From Pseudarthrobacter equi (GTDB lineage Bacteria > Actinomycetota > Actinomycetes > Actinomycetales > Micrococcaceae), in NCBI RefSeq assembly GCF_900105535.1, contig NZ_LT629779.1, positions 3,658,001-3,722,000 on the forward strand: 64,000 nucleotides of DNA. The letters run 5' to 3'. Numbering within the stretch: the first letter of the stretch is position 1; each line of letters begins with the position of its first letter. Positions 49,908-63,775 of this stretch are shown here, piece by piece. Both the position numbers and the translations under genes were made by a program. The notes under the pieces are model-generated. The model ran no database searches and was not told where the DNA came from. It saw nothing but the letters and a program-made list of their open reading frames with translations.

Positions 49908-50284
49908 AGGTGCTTTACCCCTTCGCTCTTGGTGTAGTACGTGGCGTGCCGGTAGTCCTTGCCCTGCGGGGACTCGAAGAACGAGCCCTTGGAATCGGGA
50001 TCGCTGGCCGCGATGGCGTCGGCCGGGACAACCCAGATGGAGACGCCCTCGTTGCGGCGGGTGTAGAGGTCGCGGGCGTTGCGGAGGGCCATCGCGGCGT
50101 CCGGGGCGTGCAGGGACCCGGCGTGCACGTGGCTCAGGCCGCGGCTGGACCGGACGAAGACCTCCCAGAGGCCCCAGGCGGAGCGGTCGTGGTGCTCCTG
50201 TGGTGCAGTGCTGACTTTGGGGGCTTCGCGGTTGATTTCTGCTGCGCCGCTTGCGGGGGCTTCCGGGTTGCCGTGGGGGCTCAT
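49904..50284 (-). CDS. paaB: phenylacetyl-CoA epoxidase subunit PaaB
   Basis: The 126-residue protein contains [31 protein letters not shown] and [21 protein letters not shown], diagnostic of PaaB. It bridges PaaAC dimers in the complex. An N-terminal extension of about 30 residues precedes the domain. It overlaps paaA by ATGA and paaC by GTGA. Confidence 0.95.
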
Positions 50285-51300
50285 GCTGCGTATTCCTTCT
50301 GCATCTTTGCTGACTGTTTTGCTGCGTAAGCCGCCGCTGCTTCCCTAACCCAGGCGCCGTCGTCGTGCGCTTGACGCCTGCGTTCCAAACGCTGGGCGTT
50401 GCAGGGACCGCGGCCGGCGAGCACTTCCTGGAACTCGTGCCAGTCCAGCGGGCCGTGCTCCCACTTCTTGGTGTCCTCGTTGTAGCGGACCTGGTCATCG
50501 GGGAGGGTGAGGCCCAGGACCCGGACCTGCTCCACCATCATGCCCACGAAGCGGCTGCGGAGCTCGTCATTGCTGAACCGCTTGATGTTCCAGGCCATGG
50601 ACTGCTTGGAGTTGGGCGAATCGTCATCCGGCGGTCCGAACATCATCAGCGCCGGGGCGTACCAGCGGTTCACGGCATCCTGCGCCATCTGCTTCTGCGC
50701 TGCCGTTCCGTTGGAGAGCTCCAGGAGGATCTCGAAGCCCTGGCGCTGGTGGAAGGATTCTTCCTTGCAGACGCGCACCATGGCGCGGCCGTAGGGGCCG
50801 TAGGAGGCGCGGCACAGCGGGACCTGATTGCAGATGGCTGCGCCGTCCACCAGCCAGCCGATGGCGCCCATGTCCGCCCAGGTGCGGGCGGGGTAGTTGA
50901 AGATGCTGGAGTAGCGGGCCTTGCCGGCGATGAGGTCGTCCATCATCTTGTCGCGGCTCTGGCCGAGGGTTTCGGCGGCGCTGTAGAGGTAGAGCCCATG
51001 GCCGGCCTCGTCCTGGACCTTGGCCATGAGGATGGACTTGCGCTTCAGGCTGGGGGCACGGGAGATCCAGTTGGCCTCGGGCTGCATGCCGATGATCTCC
51101 GAGTGGGCGTGCTGGGATACCTGGCGCAGCAGCGTCTTGCGGTAGGCGGCCGGCATCCAGTCCTTGGGCTCAATGCGTGAATCTTCGGCGATGACGCGGT
51201 CGAAGTGGGCCTGGCCGGCTGCGTCCGCTTCTTGCTGGGCCGCCTGGGCCTGTTCGGTTGCGGGCTCAGCGGGCACTGACTGCAGGTTCTGCGCTGCCAT
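50281..51300 (-). CDS. paaA: phenylacetyl-CoA epoxidase catalytic subunit PaaA
   Basis: The 339-residue diiron oxygenase subunit contains [36 protein letters not shown] and [19 protein letters not shown], supplying the Glu/His ligands. It epoxidises the ring of phenylacetyl-CoA using O2 and electrons from PaaE. An Ala/Gln-rich N-terminus of about 30 residues precedes the domain. First gene of paaABCDE-G, with a PaaR-type operator about 45 bp upstream. Confidence 0.95.
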
Positions 51301-51363: not shown

Positions 51364-51399
51364 ATATGCGGAAGCGTTTGGGGCCGTCAAGCGTGCCAC

Positions 51400-51527
51400 C
51401 CCTTTTCGACGCGCGCTCACTCGTGGCGGCTCCCCCTTCGACGCGCGCTCACTTGTGGCGGCTCTCGCTACAACGCGCGCTCACTTGTGGCGGCTATCCC
51501 TCCAACGCCCGCTCACTCGTGGCGGCT
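51400..51527 (+). repeat. four tandem 32-bp repeats
   Basis: Four contiguous units of exactly 32 bp each end in GCTCACTTGTGGCGGCT or a one- or two-base variant and usually contain TCGACGCGC. They lie between paaA and rpoN, within a 389-bp gap that contains no gene except this repeat, its inverted copies and the paa operator. Confidence 0.85.
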
Positions 51528-51620
51528 CCCCCAACTGGGTAGCAGTAGATGTCGTTTTGGGGGCTCGGCGTAACGCTGCAGTAACGGCCGTCGTGGCAAA
51601 TGGAGACCAACCAACCTGAA

Positions 51621-51677
51621 ACCAGTGAGCGCGCGTCCCCTGGGAAGACACCGCAAGTGAGCGCGCGTTTGAGGGGG
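51621..51677 (-). repeat. two inverted copies of the 32-bp repeat just before rpoN
   Basis: CAGTGAGCGCGCGTCCCC (51624-51641) and GCAAGTGAGCGCGCGTTTGA (51653-51672) are inverted relatives of the upstream unit. They end 13 bp before the rpoN start, so they lie in its leader or promoter region. Transcribed together with the forward units they could form long stem-loops. Confidence 0.6.
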
Positions 51678-51689
51678 TACTGAAGGGCC

Positions 51690-52982
51690 ATGGCGAGCGG
51701 AGTGGCGGGTCAGAGCCTGCAACTGCAGACCGTGCTGCACGCTGAACTTCGTGCGCTGCCCGGCCTTCTAAACGCCATGGGCATGCTGGCCCTGACCCAC
51801 GACGAGGTCACGCAGGCCACAGAACGCGCGCTCGCCGAGAACCCCGTCCTGGAGCGGGCCGAGGGCCACCCGTGCCCCGGCTGCGGCCGGCACGTCGCCT
51901 CCGGAACCTGCCCCCGCTGTACGGGGCGGGCCACCGCTGCCCAGTTCCCCGGCGGCATGGAACCGGCCTATGACCCCTTCGCGACGCTCGAAGCCGACGC
52001 CGGAACGGAAGTCCGGTCCGACTGCCGTCACGCGCTCACCCTGGTCATCGCGCACCTGACCCCACGCGGGCTCCTCGACGCCGGACCGGAAGCGATCGCC
52101 GCAGCTGAAAACCTGGAGCCCGGGCACGTCCACGAAGCCGTCCGCGCCATCAAGGCCGTGGGCCCGCCCGGCATCGCCGCCACCAGCATCACCAATTTAC
52201 TGGCCGCCCAGGCTGACGCGCTCGCGGAGCAGGGCCACGTCCCGCACTGGCTCCCCCGCCTGGTTCGCGGGCACCTCGGCGACCTGGCCGCGGGAAGCAC
52301 CGACGTCGTCGTCCGCGCCATGGGACTGACCGAGGCCCAGGTCCGGGAAGGCCTGGCGCTCATCAAGGACCGGCTGAAGCCGTTCGTTTCCGCGGAAACT
52401 GCGTCCGTTGCAGGAGCGGCTCCAACCGCGGACGTGTTCCTGTACCGCAGGCCCGACGGATCGCTGGAGGTGGAGGTGCCGGCGAGCGCCTGGTTCGGGC
52501 TGCAGGTGGCGGACCTCTCCGCCGGCCTGCGCGGGGCGTCAGGCACCACCGAGGCGGCGCAATGGCTCACAGAGCATGAACTTGCGGCGCAGCGGCTCCT
52601 CTACCAGATCGACCGCCGCGCCGGCGCCCTCCTCCGCATCACCGAATGCGCGGTGATGCACCAGAAGGACTTCCTGGACCGCGGCACCGGGCACCACAAA
52701 CCCCTGACGCGGACCGCCGTCGCGCAGGAACTCGGGCTGCACCCGTCCACGGTGAGCCGGGCGGTCAGCGGCAAGCGGCTCCGGCTGCCCACCGGCTCCG
52801 TCACGGACCTCGCCTGCATGTTCGGCAAGGGCCTGGCTGCGCGGGCTGCCTTGCGGGAATCAATCACGACGGCGGGTCCCGCCTCGGACGAGCAGCTCCG
52901 GGAGATGCTGGCGCGCGGCGGGTTCAGCGTCGCCCGGCGGACCGTGAACAAGTACCGTCACACGCTGCAGCAGGGCGCCTGA
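51690..52982 (+). CDS. rpoN: RNA polymerase sigma-54 factor (RpoN)
   Basis: The 430-residue protein follows the sigma-54 plan. Region I (about 8-56, Leu/Gln-rich, ending AENPVLE) is the activator-responsive part. A core-binding region spans about 95-285 and includes LVIAHLTPRGLLD and AVGPPGIAATSI. The DNA-binding region has an HTH (TAVAQELGLHPSTVSRAVSGK, about 348-368) and the RpoN box ARRTVNKYR at 415-423 (canonical ARRTVAKYR). Unusually, a four-Cys zinc-ribbon motif, CPGCG...CPRC (Cys62, 65, 74, 77), sits just after region I. The adjacent sigma-54 promoter and AAA+ activator show it is functional. Sigma-54 is generally absent from Actinobacteria, so horizontal gain is likely. Confidence 0.95.
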   Translation: MASGVAGQSLQLQTVLHAELRALPGLLNAMGMLALTHDEVTQATERALAENPVLERAEGHPCPGCGRHVASGTCPRCTGRATAAQFPGGMEPAYDPFATLEADAGTEVRSDCRHALTLVIAHLTPRGLLDAGPEAIAAAENLEPGHVHEAVRAIKAVGPPGIAATSITNLLAAQADALAEQGHVPHWLPRLVRGHLGDLAAGSTDVVVRAMGLTEAQVREGLALIKDRLKPFVSAETASVAGAAPTADVFLYRRPDGSLEVEVPASAWFGLQVADLSAGLRGASGTTEAAQWLTEHELAAQRLLYQIDRRAGALLRITECAVMHQKDFLDRGTGHHKPLTRTAVAQELGLHPSTVSRAVSGKRLRLPTGSVTDLACMFGKGLAARAALRESITTAGPASDEQLREMLARGGFSVARRTVNKYRHTLQQGA

Positions 52983-53106
52983 GCGCAACTTCGCTGCACC
53001 AGCCCCACGCGAATCTATTTTCGCCGCGGCGAACCCCCGTTCGGCCCCGCGCTTGTCAGCGCCCGGAAACCCGGCCCCGGAGACCGCAACCCAAGCCCCC
53101 AAAGGG

Positions 53107-53123
53107 TTGGCACGAATTGTGCA
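53107..53123 (+). promoter_or_regulatory. sigma-54 -24/-12 promoter
   Basis: TTGGCACGAATTGTGCA matches the consensus YTGGCACG-N4-TTGCW with one mismatch (GTGC for TTGC) and the exact GG-to-GC distance of 12 bp. It is 75 bp upstream of the first cluster gene and in the correct orientation. Confidence 0.9.
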
Positions 53124-53197
53124 GTAAGAGGGTATGCGGTGTTCCGCGGTGGCGCCTCCAACGGCGGCGCCTGCAAGACTCCGGAAAGGAAATACTC

Positions 53198-53911
53198 ATG
53201 CACGACATCGATAGGGCACTGTTCGAGGGCCAGGACGAAGGCACCTGGGGCGAGGTGATGGAACAGGAGTCCGGCTACTCCTACGAGGACGAGTCACCGT
53301 TCCAGGGCGAAGACGCCGGCGAGGCCGGGGGCCTGTGGGGAGAGGCGGACAGCCGCGAAGCCGACGAGCTCGCCCTCGCCGCGGAACTGCTCGAAGTCAG
53401 CGACGAGGACGAACTGGACCAGTTCCTCGGCGACCTGGCCAAGAAGGCCTTCTCCGCCGCCCGCGACTTCGCCGGCAGCGCCGCGGGACAGGCCGTGGGC
53501 AACGTGCTCAAGTCCGCCGCCAGGAAGGCCCTGCCCCAGCTGGGACAGGCGGTGGGCAACTACTTCGTCCCCGGCGCCGGCGGTCAGGCCGGACGACAGG
53601 TGGGCAAGTGGCTGGGCAGCAAGTTCGAATCCGGCCTGCAGCTGGAGGGCCTCTCCGCCGAGGACCGCGACCTGGAAACCGCGCGCGCCTTCGTCCGCTT
53701 CGCCACCGACACCGCGCAGCGGACCGCCGCCACGCCCAAGAGTGTGCCCGCCGTCCAGGCAGCACAGCAGGCAGCCACCGCCGCGGCCCGGCAACACCTC
53801 CCCGGCCTCCTCAAACGCCCCGGCCAGCCCGGCCAGCCCGGCCAGTCCGGACGTTCCGGCGGCCGGTGGATCCGCCGCGGCCGCAACATCGTCATCCTCA
53901 ACGCACGCTAA
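53198..53911 (+). CDS. acidic-head protein A of the sigma-54 cluster
   Basis: The 237-residue protein has a strongly acidic N-terminus (about 1-58). A short amphipathic helix, ELLEVSDEDELDQFLGDL, spans 63-80. A Gly/Ala-rich core (about 85-145; AGQAVGNVLKSAARKALPQL, PGAGGQAGRQVGKWLG) is followed by GLSAEDRDLETARAFVRFA, an Ala-rich helix, a Pro/Gly linker and a C-terminus GRWIRRGRNIVIL. It is paralogous to the next gene. The core could insert into membranes or self-assemble. I know this layout only from uncharacterised proteins of other phyla. SD GGAAAGGA is at 7 nt; the sigma-54 promoter is directly upstream. Confidence 0.75.
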   Translation: MHDIDRALFEGQDEGTWGEVMEQESGYSYEDESPFQGEDAGEAGGLWGEADSREADELALAAELLEVSDEDELDQFLGDLAKKAFSAARDFAGSAAGQAVGNVLKSAARKALPQLGQAVGNYFVPGAGGQAGRQVGKWLGSKFESGLQLEGLSAEDRDLETARAFVRFATDTAQRTAATPKSVPAVQAAQQAATAAARQHLPGLLKRPGQPGQPGQSGRSGGRWIRRGRNIVILNAR

Positions 53912-53959
53912 CCCGGCACAACCCACCCCCGAGCACCACCCAACCCAAAGGACATTGCC

Positions 53960-54745
53960 ATGAGCACCTACTACGAGACCGAGTCCGCCAGCCCCTGGGC
54001 GCAGGAAGAAGAGGACGAAGGCGGCTTCAGCGGCTACGAAGGCGAATCGGACCACGAAGGGAACCTCGAAACCGAACTGGCCATGGAACTCCTCAGCGTC
54101 AGCTCCGAGGAGGAACTGGACCAATTCCTGGGCAGCCTGGCCCGCAGCGTGGTCCGGGGCGCCTCCAAGTTCATCAAGTCCCCCATCGGCAGAGCACTGG
54201 GCGGCGCGCTCAAATCGGTGGCCAAGACGGCGCTGCCCATTGTGGGAGGCGCCATCGGCTCCTTCGTGGCTCCCGGCGTCGGGACAGCCATCGGCAGCAA
54301 GCTCGGCTCCATGGCCGGCGGCCTGCTCGAAGCCGACGAAGCCGAGTCCATGGACGAATCCGAGGCCGAGGAAGAAGCCGCCCGCCGCTACGTCCGGTTC
54401 GCCCGGGCCGCCTACCGCAACGCCGCGCGGACCCCCGTCTCGGTCCCGCCCAACGCGGCCGCCCGCGCCGCAGCCACCGCAGCCGCCCGCCGCTACGCCC
54501 CATCCCTGCTGCGCGCCCGCCAGGCCGCCCGGCGCGGATCCAGCGGTTCCGGCGGCTACCGCGGCGGCACCCGGATCTACAACAACCAGTACTCCGGAGC
54601 CACCTGGGGCGCCCCGGACGAGGGCTGGGACAGCGGCCAGCAGAACGGAAATTCCGACGCCGGCCAGGGCGGCGGCCAGGACGGCGGCGCGGACGAGGGC
54701 CGCTGGATCCGCCGCAACGGGCGCGTCATCCTGCTGGGTCTCTGA
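53960..54745 (+). CDS. acidic-head protein B of the sigma-54 cluster
   Basis: The 261-residue protein is a paralogue of the preceding one. It has an acidic N-terminus, ELLSVSSEEELDQFLGSL at 43-60, and a Gly/Ala-rich core SPIGRALGGALKSVAKTALP then GGAIGSFVAPGVGTAIGSKLG. An acidic spacer, a YVRFARAAYRNAARTP helix, a Gly/Asn/Gln-rich linker with YNNQYSG, and a C-terminus GRWIRRNGRVILL follow. The glycine-zipper-like core is typical of membrane-inserting or oligomerising segments. No signal peptide is present, so export, if any, needs another route. Function unknown. Confidence 0.75.
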   Translation: MSTYYETESASPWAQEEEDEGGFSGYEGESDHEGNLETELAMELLSVSSEEELDQFLGSLARSVVRGASKFIKSPIGRALGGALKSVAKTALPIVGGAIGSFVAPGVGTAIGSKLGSMAGGLLEADEAESMDESEAEEEAARRYVRFARAAYRNAARTPVSVPPNAAARAAATAAARRYAPSLLRARQAARRGSSGSGGYRGGTRIYNNQYSGATWGAPDEGWDSGQQNGNSDAGQGGGQDGGADEGRWIRRNGRVILLGL

Positions 54746-54789
54746 CCGGCGGAGCGGACACGGCAGACGGCTGACGGCAGGCGATCGAG

Positions 54790-56115
54790 GTGGACACCAA
54801 CAGCATCGGCACGGCGCTGATCGAGAGTGAAGCGACCGGCCTGATGTCGCGGCTGGACCAGATCAAGCCTTTCGTCATGCACGAAACAATGGTCCTCGCC
54901 GCCGCCCTCCCCCGCGACGCCCAGCTGCTGATCGAACGGTTCCTGCACACCGGACGCCACGAACTGCGCGTCCAGATCGGGGACTTCCTCGACTGGCTGC
55001 ACAGCGACGGGCGGACCGCCACCCCCGCCGAACAGCAGCGTCGTTTCGTCCTCATCCGCCTCCAGTTCAACATGGTCCTGTCCCAGTTCGACATGTTCAC
55101 CGAGGTGGTCACCCAGCGCAGCGAACACTCCACGGGGGTCTGGCTTTCCGGGCTGGACATCCTCGCCCAGGATGCGCTGCGGCTGGGACGGTACGACGAC
55201 GGCGACGCCCGGCTGGTGGTCTACCTCGCCCGGGGCGCGGGTGCTGCGATCCGGCGCGCCAAGACCCGGCTGCCCGGCGGCAAGCCCAACCCGGTGGGCA
55301 TCATCCGGCTACCCCGGGAGCGGATGGTGGGCAGCGGGATCGCGTCCTCCCTGGCGCACGAAGTGGGCCACCAGGGGGCCGCGCAGCTGGACCTGGTCAC
55401 TTCACTTCGGGCCGAGCTGGACCGGCGGGCAGCGCAGGACCCGGACGGCGGCTGGGACGTGTGGTCCCTCTGGATCAGCGAAATCGTGGCGGACATGTGG
55501 TCCGTGGCCACGGTGGGCATCACCTCCACGGTGGGCCTCCTGGCGGTGGTCAGCCTTCCCCGCTATTTCGTGTTCCGCCCCGGCGGCACCGACCCCCACC
55601 CGATGCCGTACCTGCGGGTGCTGATCTCCGCGGCACTGGGCAATGCCCTCTACCCACATCCGCAGTGGCGGGAGCTGGCGGCGGTGTGGCGGGCGATGTA
55701 CCCGGTGGCCGGCCTCCCGGACCACCACCTCGCCTGGATCAGGAAACGCGAGTCCCATATCGGCAACCTGGTGGAGGTCCTCATGAACCACCCTGTGGCC
55801 TTGGCCGGCGGCCGGAAGTTGGGCACCATCTGGCCCGTCCGCCAGCGGCAGCCCGACCGGCTGCTGAGCCTGCACGAAGCCTGGGGCAACGATTTCGGCA
55901 TCATGGCCCGGCAACGGCCCGCCCTGGTGTTCGCCGTGCTGGGCCAGGCGAAGGCCGCCGGCCGGATCACCGCCGGGGAGGAAAGCGCCCAGCTGTCATC
56001 CCTGCTCACCGCGTGGGCCGTGCGCAGCAGCCTGGACCTCATGGGCAGCCCCGCACCACCGGGCCTGCCCGCACCGCAGAACCCCACCACACCAGCACTA
56101 ACAACAAGGAGATAG
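54790..56115 (+). CDS. gluzincin-type HExxH protein of the sigma-54 cluster
   Basis: The 441-residue protein carries HEVGH at 190-194 and, 37 residues on, EIVAD (Glu231, Asp235). This is the ligand spacing of gluzincin zinc metallopeptidases. The N-terminal 150 residues are helical without recognised domain; the C-terminal half (about 260-420) has HPQWRELAAVWRAMYP and a Pro-rich end. No signal peptide is present. It may cut or mature the two acidic proteins encoded upstream; this is inference from position. GTG 54790 is the only practical start, with a weak GAG in front. It ends 2 bp before the next gene. Confidence 0.7.
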   Translation: MDTNSIGTALIESEATGLMSRLDQIKPFVMHETMVLAAALPRDAQLLIERFLHTGRHELRVQIGDFLDWLHSDGRTATPAEQQRRFVLIRLQFNMVLSQFDMFTEVVTQRSEHSTGVWLSGLDILAQDALRLGRYDDGDARLVVYLARGAGAAIRRAKTRLPGGKPNPVGIIRLPRERMVGSGIASSLAHEVGHQGAAQLDLVTSLRAELDRRAAQDPDGGWDVWSLWISEIVADMWSVATVGITSTVGLLAVVSLPRYFVFRPGGTDPHPMPYLRVLISAALGNALYPHPQWRELAAVWRAMYPVAGLPDHHLAWIRKRESHIGNLVEVLMNHPVALAGGRKLGTIWPVRQRQPDRLLSLHEAWGNDFGIMARQRPALVFAVLGQAKAAGRITAGEESAQLSSLLTAWAVRSSLDLMGSPAPPGLPAPQNPTTPALTTRR

Positions 56116-56117
56116 CC

Positions 56118-57680
56118 ATGGATTTCAATCGACGGCCGGTTGCACCGGTTTACGCGGGACAGGACGTGGGCATCCGGTTCCAGCTGGAATCTTCGGACCC
56201 GCTGGGCGACTACGACTTCCAGGTCCTGGACGAACGGGGCAGGAGCGTGCCCATCGGCGGGAACAAGGGCGGCGTTTTCAGCAAGACCATGAGCCGCGGC
56301 AAGGCCCTGGACCTGAAAGTCCAGCTTCCCGAGGCCATGGAGTACAGGATCCGGTTCCGGCCCAACATGCGCGGCATCGTAGGGAACTGGACCATCATCG
56401 ACCGGATCGATGTGCAGGCGCCCGAGTCCGCACCGGTGGTCAAGGTGGCCCTGGAGCCGAACGCCTCCCCCAACAGCGGCCATTCCCAGCTTTGGGAGTT
56501 CATTTCCGGGGTATCCGGGAACCTGACCTACACCAACTTCGCCGCATTCGCGAAGACACGGAAGAAGAGCTTCAATGCCTTCCCGCCCTTCGGCGGGATG
56601 ACGTACCAGAACCTGCACGCCCTCTCGGTGGAATTCGTTTCGAAGGGGGCGCTGGGCAACAAGTTCGGATCGGGCAAGAAGGGCACCAGTTGGGGACCGG
56701 CCCCGCACAGCAGCCAGGCCATTCCGCTGTCCTACGTCAGCGACCAGGACAAGGACCTCGCCAGCCCCTTCCCGAGCGGCATCCCCAACGGCCCCTACCC
56801 GCTGGACCTGGTGCCCTTCGTCGAGCTGATTTACGTGTACTGGCTGGAGGAGGGCATGCTGTTCCAGTCGCTGAACCGGATCATTGCCCGGTTCCAGAAC
56901 CGGCGGACCCCGGCCGGCGGGGACGCGTTGTCCCGGCTCGCCGTCAGCCCGCTCCTGCCGCTGAGAGGCCTCCTTTGGGGGCTGGCCGAGGCGGAGAAGG
57001 ACCGGCTCTCGCTGCGCCGCCGCGCCGCCGAGTACGAGTACCAGTACGGGCTGCAGCTGATCGGCCGGGCCATCCCGCCGTCGGAGACGCTCGTGGAACG
57101 GCGGACCCAGTTCCTGGACGCCTTCCATGGCCTGCTCAACGCCTGCCACCGCTACTACAAGGAGTTCAGCGACAAGACCGTGGACGCGGACGCCTTTCCG
57201 CTGCTGAGCAACCTGCAGGAACTGCACCTGGTCCTCGCGGCCGGAGCCAACAACCAGTTCGCCGACGTTTCACTGACCGCCCGGATCGAGACCCTCGACG
57301 TGCAGTGGATGCTGGCCCAGCCGGAGATGCGCGAGTTCCTGGGCGGCCGCACCATGGTGCCCTACCAGGAGGAATGGATGGGCCGGGTGGACACCATGAA
57401 GCTGATGCAGGAGTGGGCCGATACCAGCGTGACCCACTTCTACGACCTTGCCGTCCACGGCGAGCAGCTGCTGCTGTCCGTCCGCCACGGCCGGTGGAAC
57501 GAGTCAGGCATGGCCAGCGACGACGCCAAGAACTGGGCGCTCAAGTGGAAGCCGTCCGTGCAGCGCTACATCCACGCCTACCGGGCCGTGACAGGGGCGG
57601 ACCTCAGCGAGCGGGTGGACACCACCATGCCGTCCGCGCTGCTGCAGCGCCGGCTGGCCCGGAAGCTTGTGCGGTACTAG
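56118..57680 (+). CDS. uncharacterised 520-residue protein of the sigma-54 cluster
   Basis: The start is certain: AAGGAG about 6 nt before ATG 56118. The first ~115 residues look like a beta-sandwich (IRFQLESSDPLGDYDFQV, YRIRFRPNMRGIVGNWTI). The middle (about 120-240) contains NLTYTNFAAFAKTRKKSF. The C-terminal half is largely helical, with LIYVYWLEEGMLFQSLNRII, a Tyr-rich RRRAAEYEYQYGLQL and WKPSVQRYIHAYRAVTG. There is no signal or membrane segment, and I recognise no family. Its size and central place suggest a structural or scaffold role for the cluster product. Confidence 0.65.
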   Translation: MDFNRRPVAPVYAGQDVGIRFQLESSDPLGDYDFQVLDERGRSVPIGGNKGGVFSKTMSRGKALDLKVQLPEAMEYRIRFRPNMRGIVGNWTIIDRIDVQAPESAPVVKVALEPNASPNSGHSQLWEFISGVSGNLTYTNFAAFAKTRKKSFNAFPPFGGMTYQNLHALSVEFVSKGALGNKFGSGKKGTSWGPAPHSSQAIPLSYVSDQDKDLASPFPSGIPNGPYPLDLVPFVELIYVYWLEEGMLFQSLNRIIARFQNRRTPAGGDALSRLAVSPLLPLRGLLWGLAEAEKDRLSLRRRAAEYEYQYGLQLIGRAIPPSETLVERRTQFLDAFHGLLNACHRYYKEFSDKTVDADAFPLLSNLQELHLVLAAGANNQFADVSLTARIETLDVQWMLAQPEMREFLGGRTMVPYQEEWMGRVDTMKLMQEWADTSVTHFYDLAVHGEQLLLSVRHGRWNESGMASDDAKNWALKWKPSVQRYIHAYRAVTGADLSERVDTTMPSALLQRRLARKLVRY

Positions 57681-57699
57681 GCGATGGCCGGGTCAGGAG

Positions 57700-58806
57700 A
57701 TGTCTAGCCCGCTGCAAGGGACGGACTTCACCTCCGCACTGTTCCTGGGCCAGCACCACCCCAGCGCCTCACTGGCGCCGTGGGCGGAGTTCACCACGGG
57801 GGTGCCGGCAGCGCTGCGGGAGCTGCCGGCCGCCGCGGACCTCGCCTCAACTGTGGCCGCCCGCCAGCACGCCGGCGCCGGCCTGGTGGCGCGCTCCGCA
57901 CTGCACGGCATGATGGACATTCTGCAGGAAATCCCCCGCCCCGGGGACCTGCTCCTGGTGGACGAGGGCGCCTATCCCCTCACCCACTGGGCCTGCCGGG
58001 CCGGCGTTTCCCGCGGCGTGCGGGTGGCGACGTACCCGCATTTCCGGCCGCCCGCCGTCGTGCCCTCAACGCGGACGTGGCTGGTGACCGACGGCTGGTG
58101 CCAGGGCTGCGGACGGCCTGCTCCCCTGGCCCGGCTGCAGGCGCTGGCCGGAAAGACCGGCGGCCGGGTGATCGTGGATGATTCGCTGGCGTTCGGCGTC
58201 CTGGGCAGGAGGAATCACGACGGCGGACGTCGCGACGGCGGGCACGGCGGCTTTGGCGATGCTGACCTTGCGGGCGGCTTCGGCGACGGGTCCGGCACGG
58301 CGCGCTGGCTGGGGCTCGGCCACGACCATGTGCTGTGGCTGGGGTCGCTGGCCAAGGCGTACGGCACCCCGGTCACGGTGATCACCGGCGACCGGGCCGC
58401 TATTGACCTGCTGGCCCGGCACGGGGAGAACCGGGTGCACAGCAGTCCGCCGTCGGCAGCTGATCTTGCCGCCGGGATCGGTGCCCTCCGCAACGGCCGC
58501 CTCCCCGCCCTGCGGGCCAGGCTGTGGCGGCTGACCCGGTGGCTCCGGCAGGCCTTCCGGGGCCTGGGCCTGCCTCCGGTGGGACAGCCGTTCCCCATCG
58601 TGGGAACCCGGGTGGCGTCGCTGCCGCTGGCGCGACGGTGGCATGCGGCCCTGGCCGCCAGGGGTGTGGAGGCACTCGTCCAGCTGCCCCGCTGCCGGCC
58701 CGGCGCCGTGCTGTCCGCGGTGGTGCGGGCCGACCACACTCAGGCCGACCTCGACCGGCTGGTACGGGGACTGGACTCCGTGACGCGGGACAGGCGGGCG
58801 GCCTGA
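57700..58806 (+). CDS. PLP-dependent AONS/KBL-like acyltransferase or aminotransferase-fold enzyme
   Basis: The 368-residue protein has the alpha-oxoamine synthase fold pattern: LLLVDEGAYPLTHWACRA, VIVDDSLAFGVLGR (159-170, where DxAHxxG normally binds the cofactor) and LWLGSLAKAYGTP with Lys219 as the likely Schiff-base lysine. The usual His of DDAHG is Leu, and a Gly/Asp/Arg-rich loop is inserted at about 172-202, so its chemistry may differ. The ATG at 57700 directly abuts AGGAG, an unusually short spacing. It overlaps the following gene as TGATG. Confidence 0.7.
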   Translation: MSSPLQGTDFTSALFLGQHHPSASLAPWAEFTTGVPAALRELPAAADLASTVAARQHAGAGLVARSALHGMMDILQEIPRPGDLLLVDEGAYPLTHWACRAGVSRGVRVATYPHFRPPAVVPSTRTWLVTDGWCQGCGRPAPLARLQALAGKTGGRVIVDDSLAFGVLGRRNHDGGRRDGGHGGFGDADLAGGFGDGSGTARWLGLGHDHVLWLGSLAKAYGTPVTVITGDRAAIDLLARHGENRVHSSPPSAADLAAGIGALRNGRLPALRARLWRLTRWLRQAFRGLGLPPVGQPFPIVGTRVASLPLARRWHAALAARGVEALVQLPRCRPGAVLSAVVRADHTQADLDRLVRGLDSVTRDRRAA

Positions 58807-59627
58807 TGGACATCGTCGACTCCCACGTCCATGTGGGGACCGCCGGGGTGCCGCTGGGCCCTCCCGACCCCGCTGCCTCCTTTGCGGTGTGGCGGAGGCG
58901 CGCGGCCGCCGTCGGGATTTACCGGGCGGTGCTGATGGCCGCTCCCGTGGGCGCCTATGCGGCGGCCAACCGGACCGTGGCCGGGCTGGCCGGGCAGGCG
59001 CCGGGGCGATGGCTCTGGTACGTGTTCGTCAACGCCGCCGCGGATCGGGGACGGGTAGGCAGCATCGTGGCGGACGCCCACACCCATGGGGCCTGCGGGA
59101 TCAAAGTGCACTGGTCCGACGGGCCGGCGACGGACGAGGTGGGTCTCGCCGCGGAACGCCACCGGATGCCGGTGCTCTTCGACCCCGGCGGCGACGTGGA
59201 GCAGGTGGTGTGGCTGGCAGAGCGTCATCCCGGGGTGGCGTGGATCGTGCCGCACCTGTCCTCCTTCTCCGATGACTGGCGGGCCCAGAGCCGGCTGATC
59301 GGCGCGCTGGCCATGGTGCCCAACATCTTCACCGACACCTCCGGAGTGCGGTACTTCGACCTGCTGACGGAGGCGGTGGCCCGGGCGGGGGCGCGCAAAG
59401 TGCTGTACGGCAGCGACGGCCCCTACCTGCACCCAGCCCCCGAACTCGCAAAGATTTTCGCGCTGGACCTGCCGCCCGCCGAACGGGCCCTCATCCTGGG
59501 CGGCAACGTCCTGCAGCTGACCGGCCCGGCGCGCAGGACCGGCGGGCGCCGCACGGCCTTCGCGGGCAATGGGCGAAGTCGCACCGATCAAAGTGGCACC
59601 GACAGGAGGAACACGGCATGGCTATGA
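58806..59627 (+). CDS. amidohydrolase_2-type TIM-barrel metal-dependent hydrolase
   Basis: The 273-residue protein starts MDIVDSHVHVG with the metal-binding HxH at His7/His9. It has GIKVHW at about 98-103, VPHLSSF with His150, and YGSDGPYLHP with Asp204, ending LGGNVLQL. This is the amidohydrolase_2 pattern (decarboxylase/lactonase-like group). The usual third His region reads VLFDPGGD, with Asp instead of His, a possible loss. The start overlaps the PLP enzyme stop (TGATG), implying the two act in one pathway. The last 40 residues are Arg/Gly-rich and probably disordered. Confidence 0.8.
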   Translation: MDIVDSHVHVGTAGVPLGPPDPAASFAVWRRRAAAVGIYRAVLMAAPVGAYAAANRTVAGLAGQAPGRWLWYVFVNAAADRGRVGSIVADAHTHGACGIKVHWSDGPATDEVGLAAERHRMPVLFDPGGDVEQVVWLAERHPGVAWIVPHLSSFSDDWRAQSRLIGALAMVPNIFTDTSGVRYFDLLTEAVARAGARKVLYGSDGPYLHPAPELAKIFALDLPPAERALILGGNVLQLTGPARRTGGRRTAFAGNGRSRTDQSGTDRRNTAWL

Positions 59628-60229
59628 CAACAACCGGACTGACCGTCGGAAGCAAGGCCGTCGGCGGCCCAGGACTTGCGGAGATCAAGCCGCACAACGA
59701 TGCGGCGATCCGGAAGGGCCTGTATCAGCTGCAGCGCTACGTGCAGCAAAGCGCGGCGGCCCGGGGAACCTCCACGGGCAAGCGGCCGGCGTGGATGGCG
59801 GGCAGCGAACCGGACCGGACCTCGGTGTGGCTGGTCACCTACAGGCCGTGGTCGGCCAAGGGCCCGCCCACCCACGTGAGGGTGTTCGCGCATGAGCTGA
59901 AGCGCGACGAGCTGCTGAAGAAGGGCCCGCTGCCCAGCCTGGAACGGCTGCTGGTTTCGCGCCGGGAGCTGGACAAGGTTGAGCTGCCCAAGACGATGCC
60001 GTTCCCGCACCCTGGCAAGCCGGACCTTTTCGGCCTGGCGGTGGAGCCGCTGGTCCGGCAGCGGTTCGCCGGCACCTTCCACCGGCCGCAGCAGAGGCCC
60101 CAGCGGCTGCGCAGGAAGGGACCTGACGTGCTCTGGCGGGAGCTGGGCGATCTGTTCCGGGAACTAGCCGACGAGACCGGCGACCGGTACTGGCGGGAAG
60201 TGGCCAACGAGCTGTCCCACGGCGTTTAG
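59618..60229 (+). CDS. uncharacterised 203-residue basic protein of the sigma-54 cluster
   Basis: ATG 59618 has a near-perfect AGGAGG 8 nt upstream and overlaps the amidohydrolase end by 10 bp. The protein has a short head and helix (DAAIRKGLYQLQRYVQQSAA). A beta-rich middle (TSVWLVTYRPWSAKGPPTHVRVFAHEL) is followed by a basic segment (RPQQRPQRLRRKGPDVLWREL) and a helical end. No domain is recognised. It is the last gene of the operon; its stop overlaps the stop of the convergent activator gene by 2-3 bp. Confidence 0.65.
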   Translation: MAMTTTGLTVGSKAVGGPGLAEIKPHNDAAIRKGLYQLQRYVQQSAAARGTSTGKRPAWMAGSEPDRTSVWLVTYRPWSAKGPPTHVRVFAHELKRDELLKKGPLPSLERLLVSRRELDKVELPKTMPFPHPGKPDLFGLAVEPLVRQRFAGTFHRPQQRPQRLRRKGPDVLWRELGDLFRELADETGDRYWREVANELSHGV

Positions 60230-61611
60230 GTGCCCTCGCCAGCGGCCGGATCTGTTTGTGGACCTGCCTTGCGGGCCTGCCGCTGCTGGACGGCGCGGTC
60301 CGTGAGCCCCAGCATGGAGGCGGCCGCATGGACGTTCCCGCCGCTGCGCTCCACCGCCAGCGCAACGGCCTCCTCCGCGGCGCGCTCCTTGATCTCGCGC
60401 AGCCCCAGGCCCGCGTCAACGGCCCAAGCCACCGCCGCGGTGAGCGGATTCGCGGCGGAGGTACCGCCGTCGTACGCGTCTTTGCCCAGCGGCCCCCGGG
60501 ATGGTTGCGGCCTGTCATCGCGGGGAACGTCGCCGGGGGTGATGGCGCCGGGGCCCACGTGCCGGGCGGCGATGCGGAAGGCGAGCTGCCTGAGGTCGCG
60601 GAGGTTGCCGGGGTAGCTGCGGCTGACGAGGGCGTCCTGGACCGCCGGGTCCACCTCGGGATCGGTCCGGGCCCCAGTGGCTTCGCGGCAGAACCTGGCG
60701 AACAGGCAGAGGATGTCCTCCAGCCGGTCGCGGAGGGGCGGCATGGTGACCACGGAGGCGGCGATGCGGTGGTACAGGTCGGTGCGGAAGCCGCCGCCGG
60801 CCACTTCGCTGAGGAGGTCGCGGTTGGTGGCGCAGATGAGCCGGAACTTGCTGTGCAGCCACCGGTCGCCGCCCACCCGCTTGTAGGTGCCTTCCTGGAC
60901 CACGCGGAGCAGTTCCGGCTGGAGCTCCAGCGGGAGCTCACCCACCTCGTCCAGAAACAGGGAACCCTGGTCCGCGCCGGAACACGCACCGGTCCGCACG
61001 CTGACCGCACCGGTGAACGCGCCCCGCTCGTGGCCGAACAGTTCGCTGCCCATCAGTGTGGGGACGATGGTGGTGCAGTCCACCACCACCAGGTTTCCGC
61101 GCTGGCTGCTGACCGCATGGGCCACCCGTGCCGCGAGCTCCTTGCCCGTGCCCGTCTCGCCCTGAATCAAGATGGGCGCGTGTCCGAATTTCGCCGCCAC
61201 CACCAGCTCCCGCAGGGCTGTCCGGAGCGCCGGGCTCTGCCCCGCCAGCTTGTCCCGGACCGGCAGGGAATCGATCACCGATTCGACGTCCTCCACCCGC
61301 TGCAGCCACGCCGAAACCGCCGCCGCCTGCTTATGCCATGCCACGCATTCCGCCGCGCCCGCCTCCAGCACCGGCCACGGCCGCAACGATCCGTCCGGCG
61401 GCCCGATCACCATCACCCGGCACCGGCCGTGCTCCGCAGCCGCGAGCGCCGCCTCCAGGTCCCGGGTCAGTTCCTGCGCCACGATCAACCCCGCTGCCGA
61501 AACGCTGCCCGGCGCATCAACGGAATCCAGCGCGATGTCCCCGGCACGGAGGGTTGCTATCGCCTCCCCGGCCCAGGCCTGCCGGCCACTGAGGTCCATC
61601 ACCCACGGCAT
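60226..61611 (-). CDS. sigma-54-dependent AAA+ enhancer-binding protein
   Basis: Domains, numbered from an upstream GTG at 61638: an N-terminal region (about 45-125) that resembles a receiver fold without phosphorylatable Asp (RVMVIGPPDG, VLEAGAAECVAW). The AAA+ domain follows, with Walker A GETGTGKE (160-167), the sigma-54 contact loop GAFTGA (206-211), Walker B SLFLDEVGEL (226-235), ATNRDL and FRTDLYHRI. A C-terminal Fis-type HTH (AVERSGGNVHAAASMLGLTDRAVQ) completes it. I prefer ATG 61611, which has GAGGGG at 5 nt. It hydrolyses ATP to open sigma-54 promoters and surely drives the operon at 53198. It converges on that operon, overlapping at the stop codons. Confidence 0.95.
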   Translation of the reverse strand: MPWVMDLSGRQAWAGEAIATLRAGDIALDSVDAPGSVSAAGLIVAQELTRDLEAALAAAEHGRCRVMVIGPPDGSLRPWPVLEAGAAECVAWHKQAAAVSAWLQRVEDVESVIDSLPVRDKLAGQSPALRTALRELVVAAKFGHAPILIQGETGTGKELAARVAHAVSSQRGNLVVVDCTTIVPTLMGSELFGHERGAFTGAVSVRTGACSGADQGSLFLDEVGELPLELQPELLRVVQEGTYKRVGGDRWLHSKFRLICATNRDLLSEVAGGGFRTDLYHRIAASVVTMPPLRDRLEDILCLFARFCREATGARTDPEVDPAVQDALVSRSYPGNLRDLRQLAFRIAARHVGPGAITPGDVPRDDRPQPSRGPLGKDAYDGGTSAANPLTAAVAWAVDAGLGLREIKERAAEEAVALAVERSGGNVHAAASMLGLTDRAVQQRQARKAGPQTDPAAGEGT

Positions 61612-61807
61612 CGAGCCCCTCGCAGTTCCGCCGCCCACGTTGCCACCGCCTGAGGAAGGAGACCACGGCCGGCGTTACTGCCCCGTTACCGGTGCGTCCC
61701 GTCGCGCGGACCGGCTGCGCGGGTGTGCCGATCTTGCGTCAATCTTTCCGTAAAAACAGCGGGTTGCAGACGGTTCCTGCAGCATGATCAGGGCTACAAA
61801 GAAGGAG

Positions 61808-62794
61808 TCAGGTGACAGCATGATCGACGACAGCGCCCCCGCCGGGTCCGCCGCTCCCGCCAGCGGCGGGACGCTTGTCATCCGCACGTGGATCGAGGCC
61901 GACGGCGAGCCCGCCTTCCGTGCCCGGGTGACCTTCAGCGAAGGCCCCGGACGCCACGGCAGCCTCGCCGCCGCCGACCGGGAGCAAGTGGTCCAGGCCG
62001 TGCGGGAGTGGCTGTGGGACCAGAACGGCTGAATAGTCCACCGGTGTTTTCCGGCCGCTGTGCACCTGCGGATGGACCGGGCCCTGGACTTCGTCGATGA
62101 GTTTCACGAGTTCCTCGGAAGGCGCCACGCCCATTTCCTGCCACAGGGTCACCGCATACTTTTCATACGCCAACAGGCCTGAGGCGGAATTTCCCATCCG
62201 TATTTCGGCGATGACCAAAGCCCGCACTGCGCTCTCATAAAGCGGTTCAATATCCAGTGCGGCCACCGCGGCTTCCGCAGCGCCTTCACAGTCACCTGCC
62301 GTCAGCAGCGAGCGGGACAGCGTGGTCAGGGCCCAGAGCCGGGACTGGCGCAACCGGCCTTCCTCAAAGACCACCCAGTCCTCGTACCACCCTGGCAGCA
62401 GCTCGGCCCCGCGCAAGTCCAGGAGCGCCCGGGCGGCCTGCCCGAAGCCGGCGGAGCCGTCCTGGAGCAGGGCACGGACCCGATGCAGGTCAACCTGCAC
62501 CGCAGGGTCCAGGGCGAGCATCGGCCCGTTCTTCGCCAGCAGCCCCGGCACCTGGCGCGTCACCAGATGAGTGCTGACCCTCAGGCTTTCCAGCGCCCTC
62601 GGCTCAGGGCAGTTTGGCCACAACAAACCGGCCAGATAGATCCGCAGGCTGGGCCCGTGGACGGCAAGCACGGCGATGAGACGCTGCTGCCTGGCGGCAA
62701 CGCGGACAATTTCTCCGTCACGGCGCAGTTGCCAATACCGGAGCAAATTCAATTCCAAATGTCCACAGACGCCATTGCCCACGGGACACCTCAA
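61808..62794 (-). CDS. SARP-like (BTAD domain) transcriptional regulator with abnormal C-terminus
   Basis: The first ~245 residues match a SARP. A winged HTH carries RQQRLIAVLAVHGPSLRIYLAGLLWP and LRVSTHLVTRQVPGLL. A BTAD helical domain follows (LDLRGAELLPGWYEDWVV, YESAVRALVIAEIRMG, ending SEELVKLIDEV). The expected stop after LIDEV is missing, so the frame runs 80 more residues of Gly/Pro-rich sequence over the opposite-strand gene at 61820-62032. The stop may have been lost by mutation. The start is unclear: TTG 62794 is the longest, and a TTG at 62758 (LELNLLRYW) would match family length better. Confidence 0.65.
   Translation of the reverse strand: MRCPVGNGVCGHLELNLLRYWQLRRDGEIVRVAARQQRLIAVLAVHGPSLRIYLAGLLWPNCPEPRALESLRVSTHLVTRQVPGLLAKNGPMLALDPAVQVDLHRVRALLQDGSAGFGQAARALLDLRGAELLPGWYEDWVVFEEGRLRQSRLWALTTLSRSLLTAGDCEGAAEAAVAALDIEPLYESAVRALVIAEIRMGNSASGLLAYEKYAVTLWQEMGVAPSEELVKLIDEVQGPVHPQVHSGRKTPVDYSAVLVPQPLPHGLDHLLPVGGGEAAVASGAFAEGHPGTEGGLAVGLDPRADDKRPAAGGSGGPGGGAVVDHAVT
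61820..62032 (+). CDS. small acidic protein, unknown function (70 aa)
   Basis: ATG 61820 begins a 70-residue protein with a Ser/Ala/Pro head and the segment TLVIRTWIEADGEPAFRARVTFSEG, then AAADREQVVQAVREWLWDQNG. This is a compact beta-beta-alpha-like unit with natural hydrophobic spacing. AAGGAG lies 12 nt upstream, a little far. It lies entirely opposite the extended tail of the SARP-like gene, so only one of the two is expected to be under normal protein selection here; this one reads as the better protein. Sequence 61612-61783 may hold its promoter. Confidence 0.5.
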   Translation: MIDDSAPAGSAAPASGGTLVIRTWIEADGEPAFRARVTFSEGPGRHGSLAAADREQVVQAVREWLWDQNG

Positions 62795-63013: not shown

Positions 63014-63775
63014 ATGCACCAGCCAACAGACAACTCACGCGGTCAACAGCACCCCGCCCCCACGGCTTCCCCGGCCGTCGGCACCCGGTTCCGGGCACTC
63101 CCCCAGCCCCGGCACTGGCTGCCGGTGGGAGCGCTGCTGTGCGCCGCCGTCGTGACGATTGGCCTGGCCGTGCAGCTGCTGCCCGGCGATACGGCCGCGG
63201 AACTGGGTTTTGACCAGACCCTCAGCCTGCACCACGCCGCCGCGCTGACTGCCGTGGCCATGGGGATCAACCTGCTGTTCGGCCCGGTGGCGGGGCTGCT
63301 GCTCATCGCCGCGGCCGCGCTGGCCATCTGGGTGTTCCGGCGCGACCTGGTTGGCGCCGTGGCGTTCGGCCTCACGGCATGCTCGGGCTGGGTGGCCAGC
63401 GAGGCCTTCAAGCTGATCTTCGCCCGGCAGCGGCCCAACCCGGCCCTGCTTTTCGATCCCCTTGCCCCGGAGACCGGCTCCAACAGCTTCCCCAGCGGCC
63501 ACACCTGCTTCGCCGTGGCCCTGGCGTTCGCGCTGTACTTCCTCTTCCGCGGCACCCGCTGGGCAAAGCCTGTGGCCGTGGCCGGCGCGGTGATGGCCGT
63601 GGTGGTGGCCTGGTCCCGGCTCTACATCGGCGTGCATTACCCCACGGATGTGGCGGCGTCCTTCCTGGCCGCGAGCGCCGCAGCGGTCCTGCTCGCCGGG
63701 CTTTGGAACCGTTTCGCCCCGCGGCTCCTGGAGCGCCTGCCCGCCGCCACCATGCGCCCCTCGGGCCGGATCTAA
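63014..63775 (+). CDS. PAP2-family membrane phosphatase
   Basis: The 253-residue protein has about six membrane helices and the three PAP2 motifs: KLIFARQRP (KxxxxxxRP), FPSGH, and SRLYIGVHYPTD (SRxxxxxHxxxD). Such enzymes dephosphorylate lipid phosphates such as phosphatidate or undecaprenyl pyrophosphate at the outer membrane face. A Pro-rich N-terminal tail of about 35 residues precedes the first helix. It is followed 10 bp later by a DedA gene, a common pairing for lipid-carrier recycling. Confidence 0.95.
   Translation: MHQPTDNSRGQQHPAPTASPAVGTRFRALPQPRHWLPVGALLCAAVVTIGLAVQLLPGDTAAELGFDQTLSLHHAAALTAVAMGINLLFGPVAGLLLIAAAALAIWVFRRDLVGAVAFGLTACSGWVASEAFKLIFARQRPNPALLFDPLAPETGSNSFPSGHTCFAVALAFALYFLFRGTRWAKPVAVAGAVMAVVVAWSRLYIGVHYPTDVAASFLAASAAAVLLAGLWNRFAPRLLERLPAATMRPSGRI

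Follow-up and report, generated by a model that had tools for sequence, protein, structure and literature searches.

The 64,000-nucleotide stretch of the Pseudarthrobacter equi genome analysed here (the window; bases 3658001-3722000 of a single contig of 4,459,078 bases that is 99.98% complete) carries at positions 51690-61638 a nine-gene cassette that we read, with a probability of roughly 0.8, as a private single-promoter sigma-54 regulon, the core of which is shared across phyla and which in Actinomycetes comes with its own rpoN. The cassette opens with rpoN on the plus strand, continues with seven co-oriented genes (53198-60229, +) that are present as a first-pass annotation of this DNA had described them, and closes with a convergent gene on the minus strand for an activator (an enhancer-binding protein, EBP), with the stop codons of the EBP gene and the last operon gene overlapping. 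The first-pass annotation also proposed that the sigma factor may serve only this operon. Such a self-contained regulon is supported in silico by the single rpoN, the single strong EBP, the conserved -24/-12 site, and the genome-unique palindrome pair described below; exclusive control is a prediction, i.e., that the cassette RpoN likely governs the adjoining operon and nothing else. Comparisons are drawn from related modules in other Arthrobacter-lineage strains, in Citricoccus and Nocardiopsis, and on proteobacterial plasmids.

The rpoN gene (51690-52982, +) encodes a divergent sigma-54 factor of 430 aa. Its DNA-binding domain (Sigma54_DBD, 93 bits against a cut-off of 22.8) and core-binding domain (Sigma54_CBD, 57.2 bits against 22.9) both lie above their Pfam thresholds, the former match being the only one in the whole genome, and both domains are matched at an E-value of 0.01 in each of the eight module RpoN proteins. 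The RpoN box of the window reads ARRTVNKYR, to be set beside ARRTVxKYR, which we take to be the motif; its A, R, R, T, V, K, Y, and R residues are invariant in all eight. Directly after region I, and before the core-binding domain, sits a cysteine cluster (residues 62-77; 51873-51920, +) in which C62, C65, and C74 are likewise invariant across the eight aligned proteins and which is possibly zinc-binding. Identity between the window and Nocardiopsis RpoN proteins is 31%.

Sigma-54 depends on a dedicated ATP-driven activator. The convergent EBP gene (60226-61638, −, from a GTG start, or to 61611 from an ATG start) encodes an AAA+ protein with a Sigma54_activat match of 176.7 bits and a GAFTGA loop, as had been claimed. 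Six frames in the genome match Sigma54_activat, with the EBP alone being strong (9e-53) and the next match (2.4e-8) falling in an 834-aa frame. The GAFTGA loop is invariant in four aligned EBPs and is found in the scanned Arthrobacter-lineage and proteobacterial copies; its variants are GAYTGA (Citricoccus) and GSFTGA (Nocardiopsis). At the C-terminus, a Fis-type helix-turn-helix (HTH_8) is weakly matched (13.6 bits versus a cut-off of 22; 18.5 bits in the Ensifer copy).

Between rpoN and the operon lies TTGGCACGAATTGTGCA (53107-53123, +), the best-scoring site in a -24/-12 scan of the 64-kb window against a consensus. Twenty columns around this site are invariant in 5/5 aligned strains (the window and four relatives); as the mean column identity of the region is 71%, the site stands beyond chance, in support of the proposed sigma-54-type promoter. 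A gap of 75 bp separates the -12 element from the operon's first start codon. Further upstream are two palindromes, GCGAA-N6-TTCGC (53009-53024) and, starting 20 bp past it, GCGAA-N6-TTCGG (53029-53044), for which conservation and the genome scan suggest a role as likely EBP binding sites. Across 14 promoter rows from 12 distinct strains (L013 and L042 being the same strain, and Nocardiopsis contributing two sites), 10 strains carry two palindromes at most 200 bp upstream, at a start-to-start spacing of 20 bp in each of seven Arthrobacter-lineage strains, 23 bp in Citricoccus, 43 bp in Ensifer, and 41 bp in Rhizobium; Paraburkholderia phymatum has a single palindrome. No further copies were detected in the surveyed loci (17-25 kb), and the 64-kb window holds one more. 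Apart from the pair at 53009-53044, the genome has no two palindromes of this kind separated by 100 bp or less.

On this basis, the cassette RpoN would bind host core RNA polymerase and hold it at 53107-53123, while the EBP would occupy the two palindromes at 53009-53044. On the signal of the EBP, its GAFTGA loop and ATP hydrolysis would remodel the closed complex, allowing the seven genes to be transcribed. One promoter and one enhancer set would thus serve the operon. We infer the biochemistry of these steps, the exclusiveness of the control, and the product of the module.

Several features of the factor and its sites pull in the opposite direction. Region I of the window RpoN is recognisable, with its Sigma54_AID score (19.3 bits) falling under the cut-off of 23.8; at an E-value of 0.01, this domain is matched in 4/8 module RpoNs (two of the eight being partial stretches), and a hidden Markov model of five module RpoNs gives region I a weak alignment (13.7 bits; i-Evalue 0.19) with the start of a sigma-54 chain from the PDB. 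The Nocardiopsis RpoN is a long branch in the phylogeny, and no such palindrome was found at the Nocardiopsis sites in the 12-strain survey. Outside of the five-strain alignment, the first base of the promoter block differs in a genus strain (L040) and in Citricoccus, the latter differing at one more base; other positions score equal to or above the promoter site in L040, P. phymatum (L071), and Rhizobium sp. CCGE532 (L072), with the site in P. phymatum being weak (score 0.83). Genome-wide, the strict pattern YTGGCACGNNNNNTGCW has two copies, the operon site and one within a long open reading frame (ORF) on the opposite strand, compared to six matches for the reversed control, i.e., the pattern is not enriched. 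The single palindrome has 49 matches on both strands, versus 13 for its reversed control. RpoN could also serve weaker promoters outside of the scanned patterns.

Control by an activator requires region I. In the first-pass annotation, RpoN had been called full; this is generous for a divergent protein with a sub-threshold region I that scores 158.7 bits against the NCBIfam equivalog TIGR02395 (rpoN_sigma; cut-off 277.35). The window protein is a divergent sigma-54 relative and not a member of that equivalog. Both shortfalls would suit a reading of RpoN as a degenerate relic, with the operon transcribed by a sigma-70-type factor, and a 2025 survey holds Actinomycetota to be effectively without a functional RpoN, with the Citricoccus sp. 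SGAir0253 protein, among others, set aside (PMC12316311). We nonetheless regard a relic as very improbable. The closest-pair dN/dS is 0.213 for rpoN and 0.144 for the EBP gene (0.10-0.27 across the nine module genes, each taken from its closest pair), the box residues and the -24/-12 block are invariant in the proteins and strains given above, and a GAFTGA-type activator is encoded in every module locus scanned. Moreover, the Citricoccus rpoN itself lies within a module that has the site and palindromes, even though its gene for a pyridoxal-phosphate (PLP)-dependent enzyme is split.

The abundance of single palindromes, together with weaker promoter matches elsewhere, would instead suit an RpoN and EBP acting as a small global regulator that also controls genes elsewhere. 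This too we find improbable, if less so. The genome encodes one strong EBP and holds one close palindrome pair, the other strict promoter match falls inside an opposite-strand ORF, and every strong RpoN in the samples described below (class, genus, and two families) came with the module. Since single palindromes are frequent genome-wide, specificity would reside in the pair only. A private regulon is therefore retained as the preferred reading of the cassette.

As for its distribution, sigma-54 has been reported as lacking in Actinobacteria in the portions consulted of two sources (PMC3162934; PMC12316311), and the first-pass annotation gave this absence as what is generally stated. For the phylum this does not stand: among 396 sampled genomes, RpoN was matched in 21, of which 18 were above cut-off, with 17 of these 18 outside of the class of the window. 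In the sampled class itself, the statement holds insofar as no strong RpoN was found outside of the module. In these samples, RpoN is ordinary outside of the class, and strong RpoN is sporadic and module-tied inside it. Seven other-class RpoN loci (20-kb stretches) yielded, of the module genes, matches to RpoN and the AAA+ activator only. At loci L090 and L091 from other classes of the phylum, RpoN adjoins an EBP, with the rest of the module absent.

Inside the class, RpoN keeps close company with the predicted metallopeptidase of the operon (Mpr). In a sample of 101 genus genomes, PF04552 was matched in six at an E-value of 0.001, with five above cut-off (G000, G025, G035, G073, and G092) and the sixth match covering 36 positions below cut-off; an Mpr profile found 10 genomes, including the same five at E-values below 1e-140 (G092 in two pieces). 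The remaining five Mpr matches (L080-L084, from G031, G038, G046, G052, and G054), with E-values between 1e-24 and 1e-39, represent a second, distant Mpr-like family, and their genomes lack RpoN. Of 394 class genomes, seven matched RpoN, four above cut-off: three strong (G000, G738, and G680) and one marginal (G820, 23.4 bits). Mpr was found in 12 of the 394, at 2e-158 or better in those same three strong genomes, and at 1.7e-37 to 4e-4 in the other nine. RpoN and close Mpr therefore coincide in the same 5/101 and the same 3/394 genomes, excluding the one marginal RpoN match; the chances of these coincidences for independent genomes, 1.3e-8 and 9.9e-8, are too small because the genomes are related.

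Family-level samples agree with this pattern. In the family of the window, RpoN was matched in 11/168 genomes, four above cut-off and three of these strong (G000, G738, and G1171), and in the family of G680 in 6/135, four above cut-off and strong in G680 alone. Here, G738 (locus L041) is Pseudarthrobacter sp. C4D7, of the same genus as the window, G680 is a Nocardiopsis, and G1171 is Citricoccus sp. SGAir0253. Altogether, strong RpoN (E-value below 1e-20) was present in eight distinct sampled class genomes, and all eight have the module. In G092, a draft of Arthrobacter nitrophenolicus, the module is split over two contigs. In the A. nitrophenolicus SJCon draft (L043), Mpr, B5 (the fourth operon protein), amidohydrolase, and EBP each come in two pieces, apparently in different frames; a B5 cluster of normal length is named for A. 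nitrophenolicus in the protein database (P0247), and sequencing error is one explanation for L043. In 301 genomes of another actinobacterial family, searched for Mpr and not for RpoN, no close Mpr was found, with five distant relatives returned.

Outside of the genus, the module recurs in Citricoccus and Nocardiopsis. Citricoccus SGAir0253 has all nine module families together with the site and palindromes, its PLP gene being split over two frames. In the portions consulted, the 2025 survey lists this strain among four actinomycetotal genomes with rpoN, judges the phylum to be effectively without a functional one, and also names RpoN proteins of Alloactinosynnema and Modestobacter (PMC12316311); the module neighbourhood in Citricoccus argues against the non-functional verdict for the RpoN of that strain. 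In Nocardiopsis (G680), the gene order is Mpr, rpoN, A-type, A-type, and B5 (the A-type genes being homologues of the first two operon genes), and the best two -24/-12-like sites of a 20-kb stretch precede Mpr and the first A-type gene.

Beyond the phylum, a tblastn search of 72,556 plasmid records returned Mpr in five, one of them distant (27%), and B5 in four. The four module plasmids belong to Ensifer adhaerens (L070), P. phymatum (L071), Rhizobium sp. CCGE532 (L072), and CCGE531; three were examined, with CCGE531 being nearly identical in these rows. All three carry A-type genes, Mpr, B5, a convergent EBP gene, palindromes, and a -24/-12-like site before the first gene (scores of 1.0, 0.95, and 0.83), with PLP and amidohydrolase genes variable. 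When the window EBP was compared to the plasmid records, the best four of 880 with a match were the same four with close Mpr and B5 (286, 266, 266, and 199 bits), the other rows among the best 15 of the 880 reaching at most 156 bits. Unlike the window, none of the three examined plasmid modules has an rpoN within 12 kb on either side, and they presumably use the RpoN of their host.

The proposal that the cassette is a transferred module is supported by this distribution, i.e., a sporadic spread in the genus (5/101), recurrence in Nocardiopsis and Citricoccus, and a core on proteobacterial plasmids without a nearby rpoN. We thus interpret it as a cross-phylum module that in actinobacteria brings its own sigma factor. 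In a tree of 33 RpoN sequences, all nine module rows lie to the same side of a branch supported at 98/98. One element of the transfer reading needed correction, since the genus copies are not scattered at random. A gene at 50281-51300 in the window, which we take to be paaA-like, precedes rpoN on the left by no more than about 6 kb in six genus strains (the window, L013, L014, L016, L040, and L041); at the A. nitrophenolicus locus L015, a left flank of more than 14 kb gave no match to it. A gene that we presume to be of PAP2 type follows the module on the right in the window (63014-63775), whereas in L016 and L041 it is found on the left, with paaA on one side of it and rpoN on the other. Given the proximity to paaA in six strains, the exception of L015, and the differing side of the PAP2-type gene, the genus copies are mostly near one place, with no single fixed arrangement.

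That shared neighbourhood is one of the grounds on which rpoN could be a vertical remnant of an ancestral actinobacterial sigma-54, kept where the operon needs it and not carried by transfer. Others are the presence of RpoN in other classes of the phylum and the same tree when rooted at its midpoint, where two other-class rows come out on the side of the module RpoNs (93/88; branch of 0.033). We consider vertical retention unlikely. Long branches leave the positions of the Nocardiopsis RpoN and the nearest two other-class rows unsure, the spread is sporadic within the genus, and neither the paaA-like nor the PAP2-type gene keeps a constant relation to the module. Furthermore, the rest of the module is common to Proteobacteria, and the Nocardiopsis rpoN sits between Mpr and A1. 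Carriage of rpoN with the module remains the reading that we prefer.

The seven genes under this predicted control encode largely unfamiliar proteins. The first two, A1 (53198-53911, +; 237 aa), a glycine-rich MHDIDR protein, and its paralogue A2 (53960-54745, +; 261 aa), are homologous at about 42%. A1-type proteins mostly begin with MHDIDR or similar, and members of the A family have a glycine-rich middle and, in nearly all aligned rows, a conserved W-x-R end; fused double copies occur in some proteins from other phyla. The glycine zipper family PF13488 is matched by 3/17 A-family members at an E-value up to 1 (best, 0.00025), with no match for A2. Mpr (54790-56115, +; 441 aa) is predicted to be a metallopeptidase, with residues H190, E191, H194, E231, A234, and D235 invariant across 53 aligned proteins; these form an HExxH motif and downstream ExxAD that we take to be of the gluzincin/M48 type. 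The model (pLDDT of 84.3) had no significant fold match, and Mpr matched no Pfam family; among 7997 scored candidates, 4663 were homologues at an E-value of 0.001. B5 (56118-57680, +; 520 aa) has an Ig-like N-terminal domain and a conserved helical C-terminal region for which no fold match was found. Searches with module proteins also returned proteins from Nocardia, Rhodococcus, Kribbella, and Nocardioides.

Downstream are genes for the PLP-dependent enzyme (57700-58806, +; Aminotran_1_2 just above cut-off, with sub-threshold likeness to BioF/Kbl), an amidohydrolase (58806-59627, +; PF04909, 60.5 bits against a cut-off of 26.4), and C8 (59618-60229, +; 203 aa), the last operon protein. C8 has a sub-threshold likeness to toxins with a restriction-endonuclease fold (Tox-REase-9, PF15650; 18.6 bits against a cut-off of 27.3), with all four aligned C8 members matching PF15650 at an E-value up to 1 (best, 1e-4). 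This 3' part of the operon is variable, with C8 being present in the Arthrobacter lineage and Citricoccus and a further A-type gene in Ensifer. The Rhizobium module (L072:16411-19212) encodes a protein of 934 aa in which an acidic, phenylalanine-rich N-terminus is combined with the domains PG_binding_1, DUF2272, and Glucosaminidase.

The first-pass annotation had held the operon to be an undescribed system, which is borne out in that no Pfam, NCBIfam, or PADLOC family accounts for A1, A2, Mpr, or B5. A literature search, largely short of full-text depth, found no published description of the module. A nitrogen or symbiosis link by way of P. phymatum was set aside, the locus-tag stems presumed for it being absent from the main texts of two of its transcriptome papers.

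What the operon makes can be approached from the features of the A, Mpr, and B5 proteins, the variable 3' genes, and the Pfam scan, in which no transporter family was found among the seven genes. From these, we would tentatively guess at an intracellular assembly of A1 and A2, processed by Mpr and holding exchangeable cargo. The broader proposal, of a mobile cross-phylum system that imports its own sigma-54 into hosts lacking one, and with it a one-promoter circuit to drive a glycine-zipper/Mpr/B5 assembly with lytic or nuclease cargo, we hold to be doubtful at present. The amidohydrolase above cut-off and the BioF/Kbl-like enzyme could instead point to a small metabolic pathway in which A1, A2, Mpr, and B5 act as a scaffold with no cargo assembly. 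Such a pathway is a serious possibility, if still one that we would not favour, as both enzymes look dispensable. Each of L057, L070, L071, and L072 has A-type genes, Mpr, B5, and EBP, whereas profile searches of the stretches detected no PLP gene in that of P. phymatum, no amidohydrolase gene in that of Rhizobium, and neither in that of Nocardiopsis. The tentative assembly with exchangeable cargo is thus kept as our guess for the product.

Further features flank the cassette. Just upstream of rpoN are tandem repeats with a 32-bp period (51377-51535 in the window, four copies; L040:6311-6374, two copies), and L016 has six tandem copies of the same period and of different sequence (L016:6418-6673); inverted copies are present in the window at 51621-51668. 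Beyond the EBP gene, an ORF for a BTAD-type regulator (61808-62794, −) is overlapped in its 3' part by a 70-aa ORF (61820-62032, +); both also flank the module in L016, L040, and L041. More distantly, positions 20001-46000 have a GC content of 0.53-0.62 (0.66 at 30-32 kb), versus 0.63-0.74 elsewhere in the window, and may mark an island.

Set beside known systems, the cassette resembles canonical sigma-54 and its NtrC-type EBPs in its core- and DNA-binding domains, RpoN box, -24/-12 promoter, upstream palindromes, and GAFTGA activator. It differs in the divergence of its RpoN, with a weak region I followed by the cysteine cluster, and in having, apparently, one promoter and one activator where canonical sigma-54 has a wide regulon. 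Extracytoplasmic function (ECF) sigma modules also place a sigma factor beside its own target genes; these are typically under anti-sigma control, have no ATP-driven activator, and belong to an unrelated sigma family. Specialised rpoN paralogues such as RpoN2 of Rhodobacter sphaeroides (PMC12316311) are comparable in that they serve a single process; however, RpoN2 is an extra copy beside other host sigma-54 genes, whereas the window RpoN has no second sigma-54 beside it in the genome and its gene adjoins what is probably its one target.

Ultimately, our analysis illustrates how surveys that apply thresholds protein by protein may miss a system visible from its gene neighbourhood, and the target operon marks an uncharacterised system that spans phyla. 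If the circuit is as predicted, a genome with a single sigma-54, a single strong activator, and what looks like a single promoter would have, to our knowledge, the smallest natural sigma-54 circuit. The cassette would then make sigma-54 transfer between phyla, and use of the circuit as an orthogonal switch in actinobacteria, directly testable.

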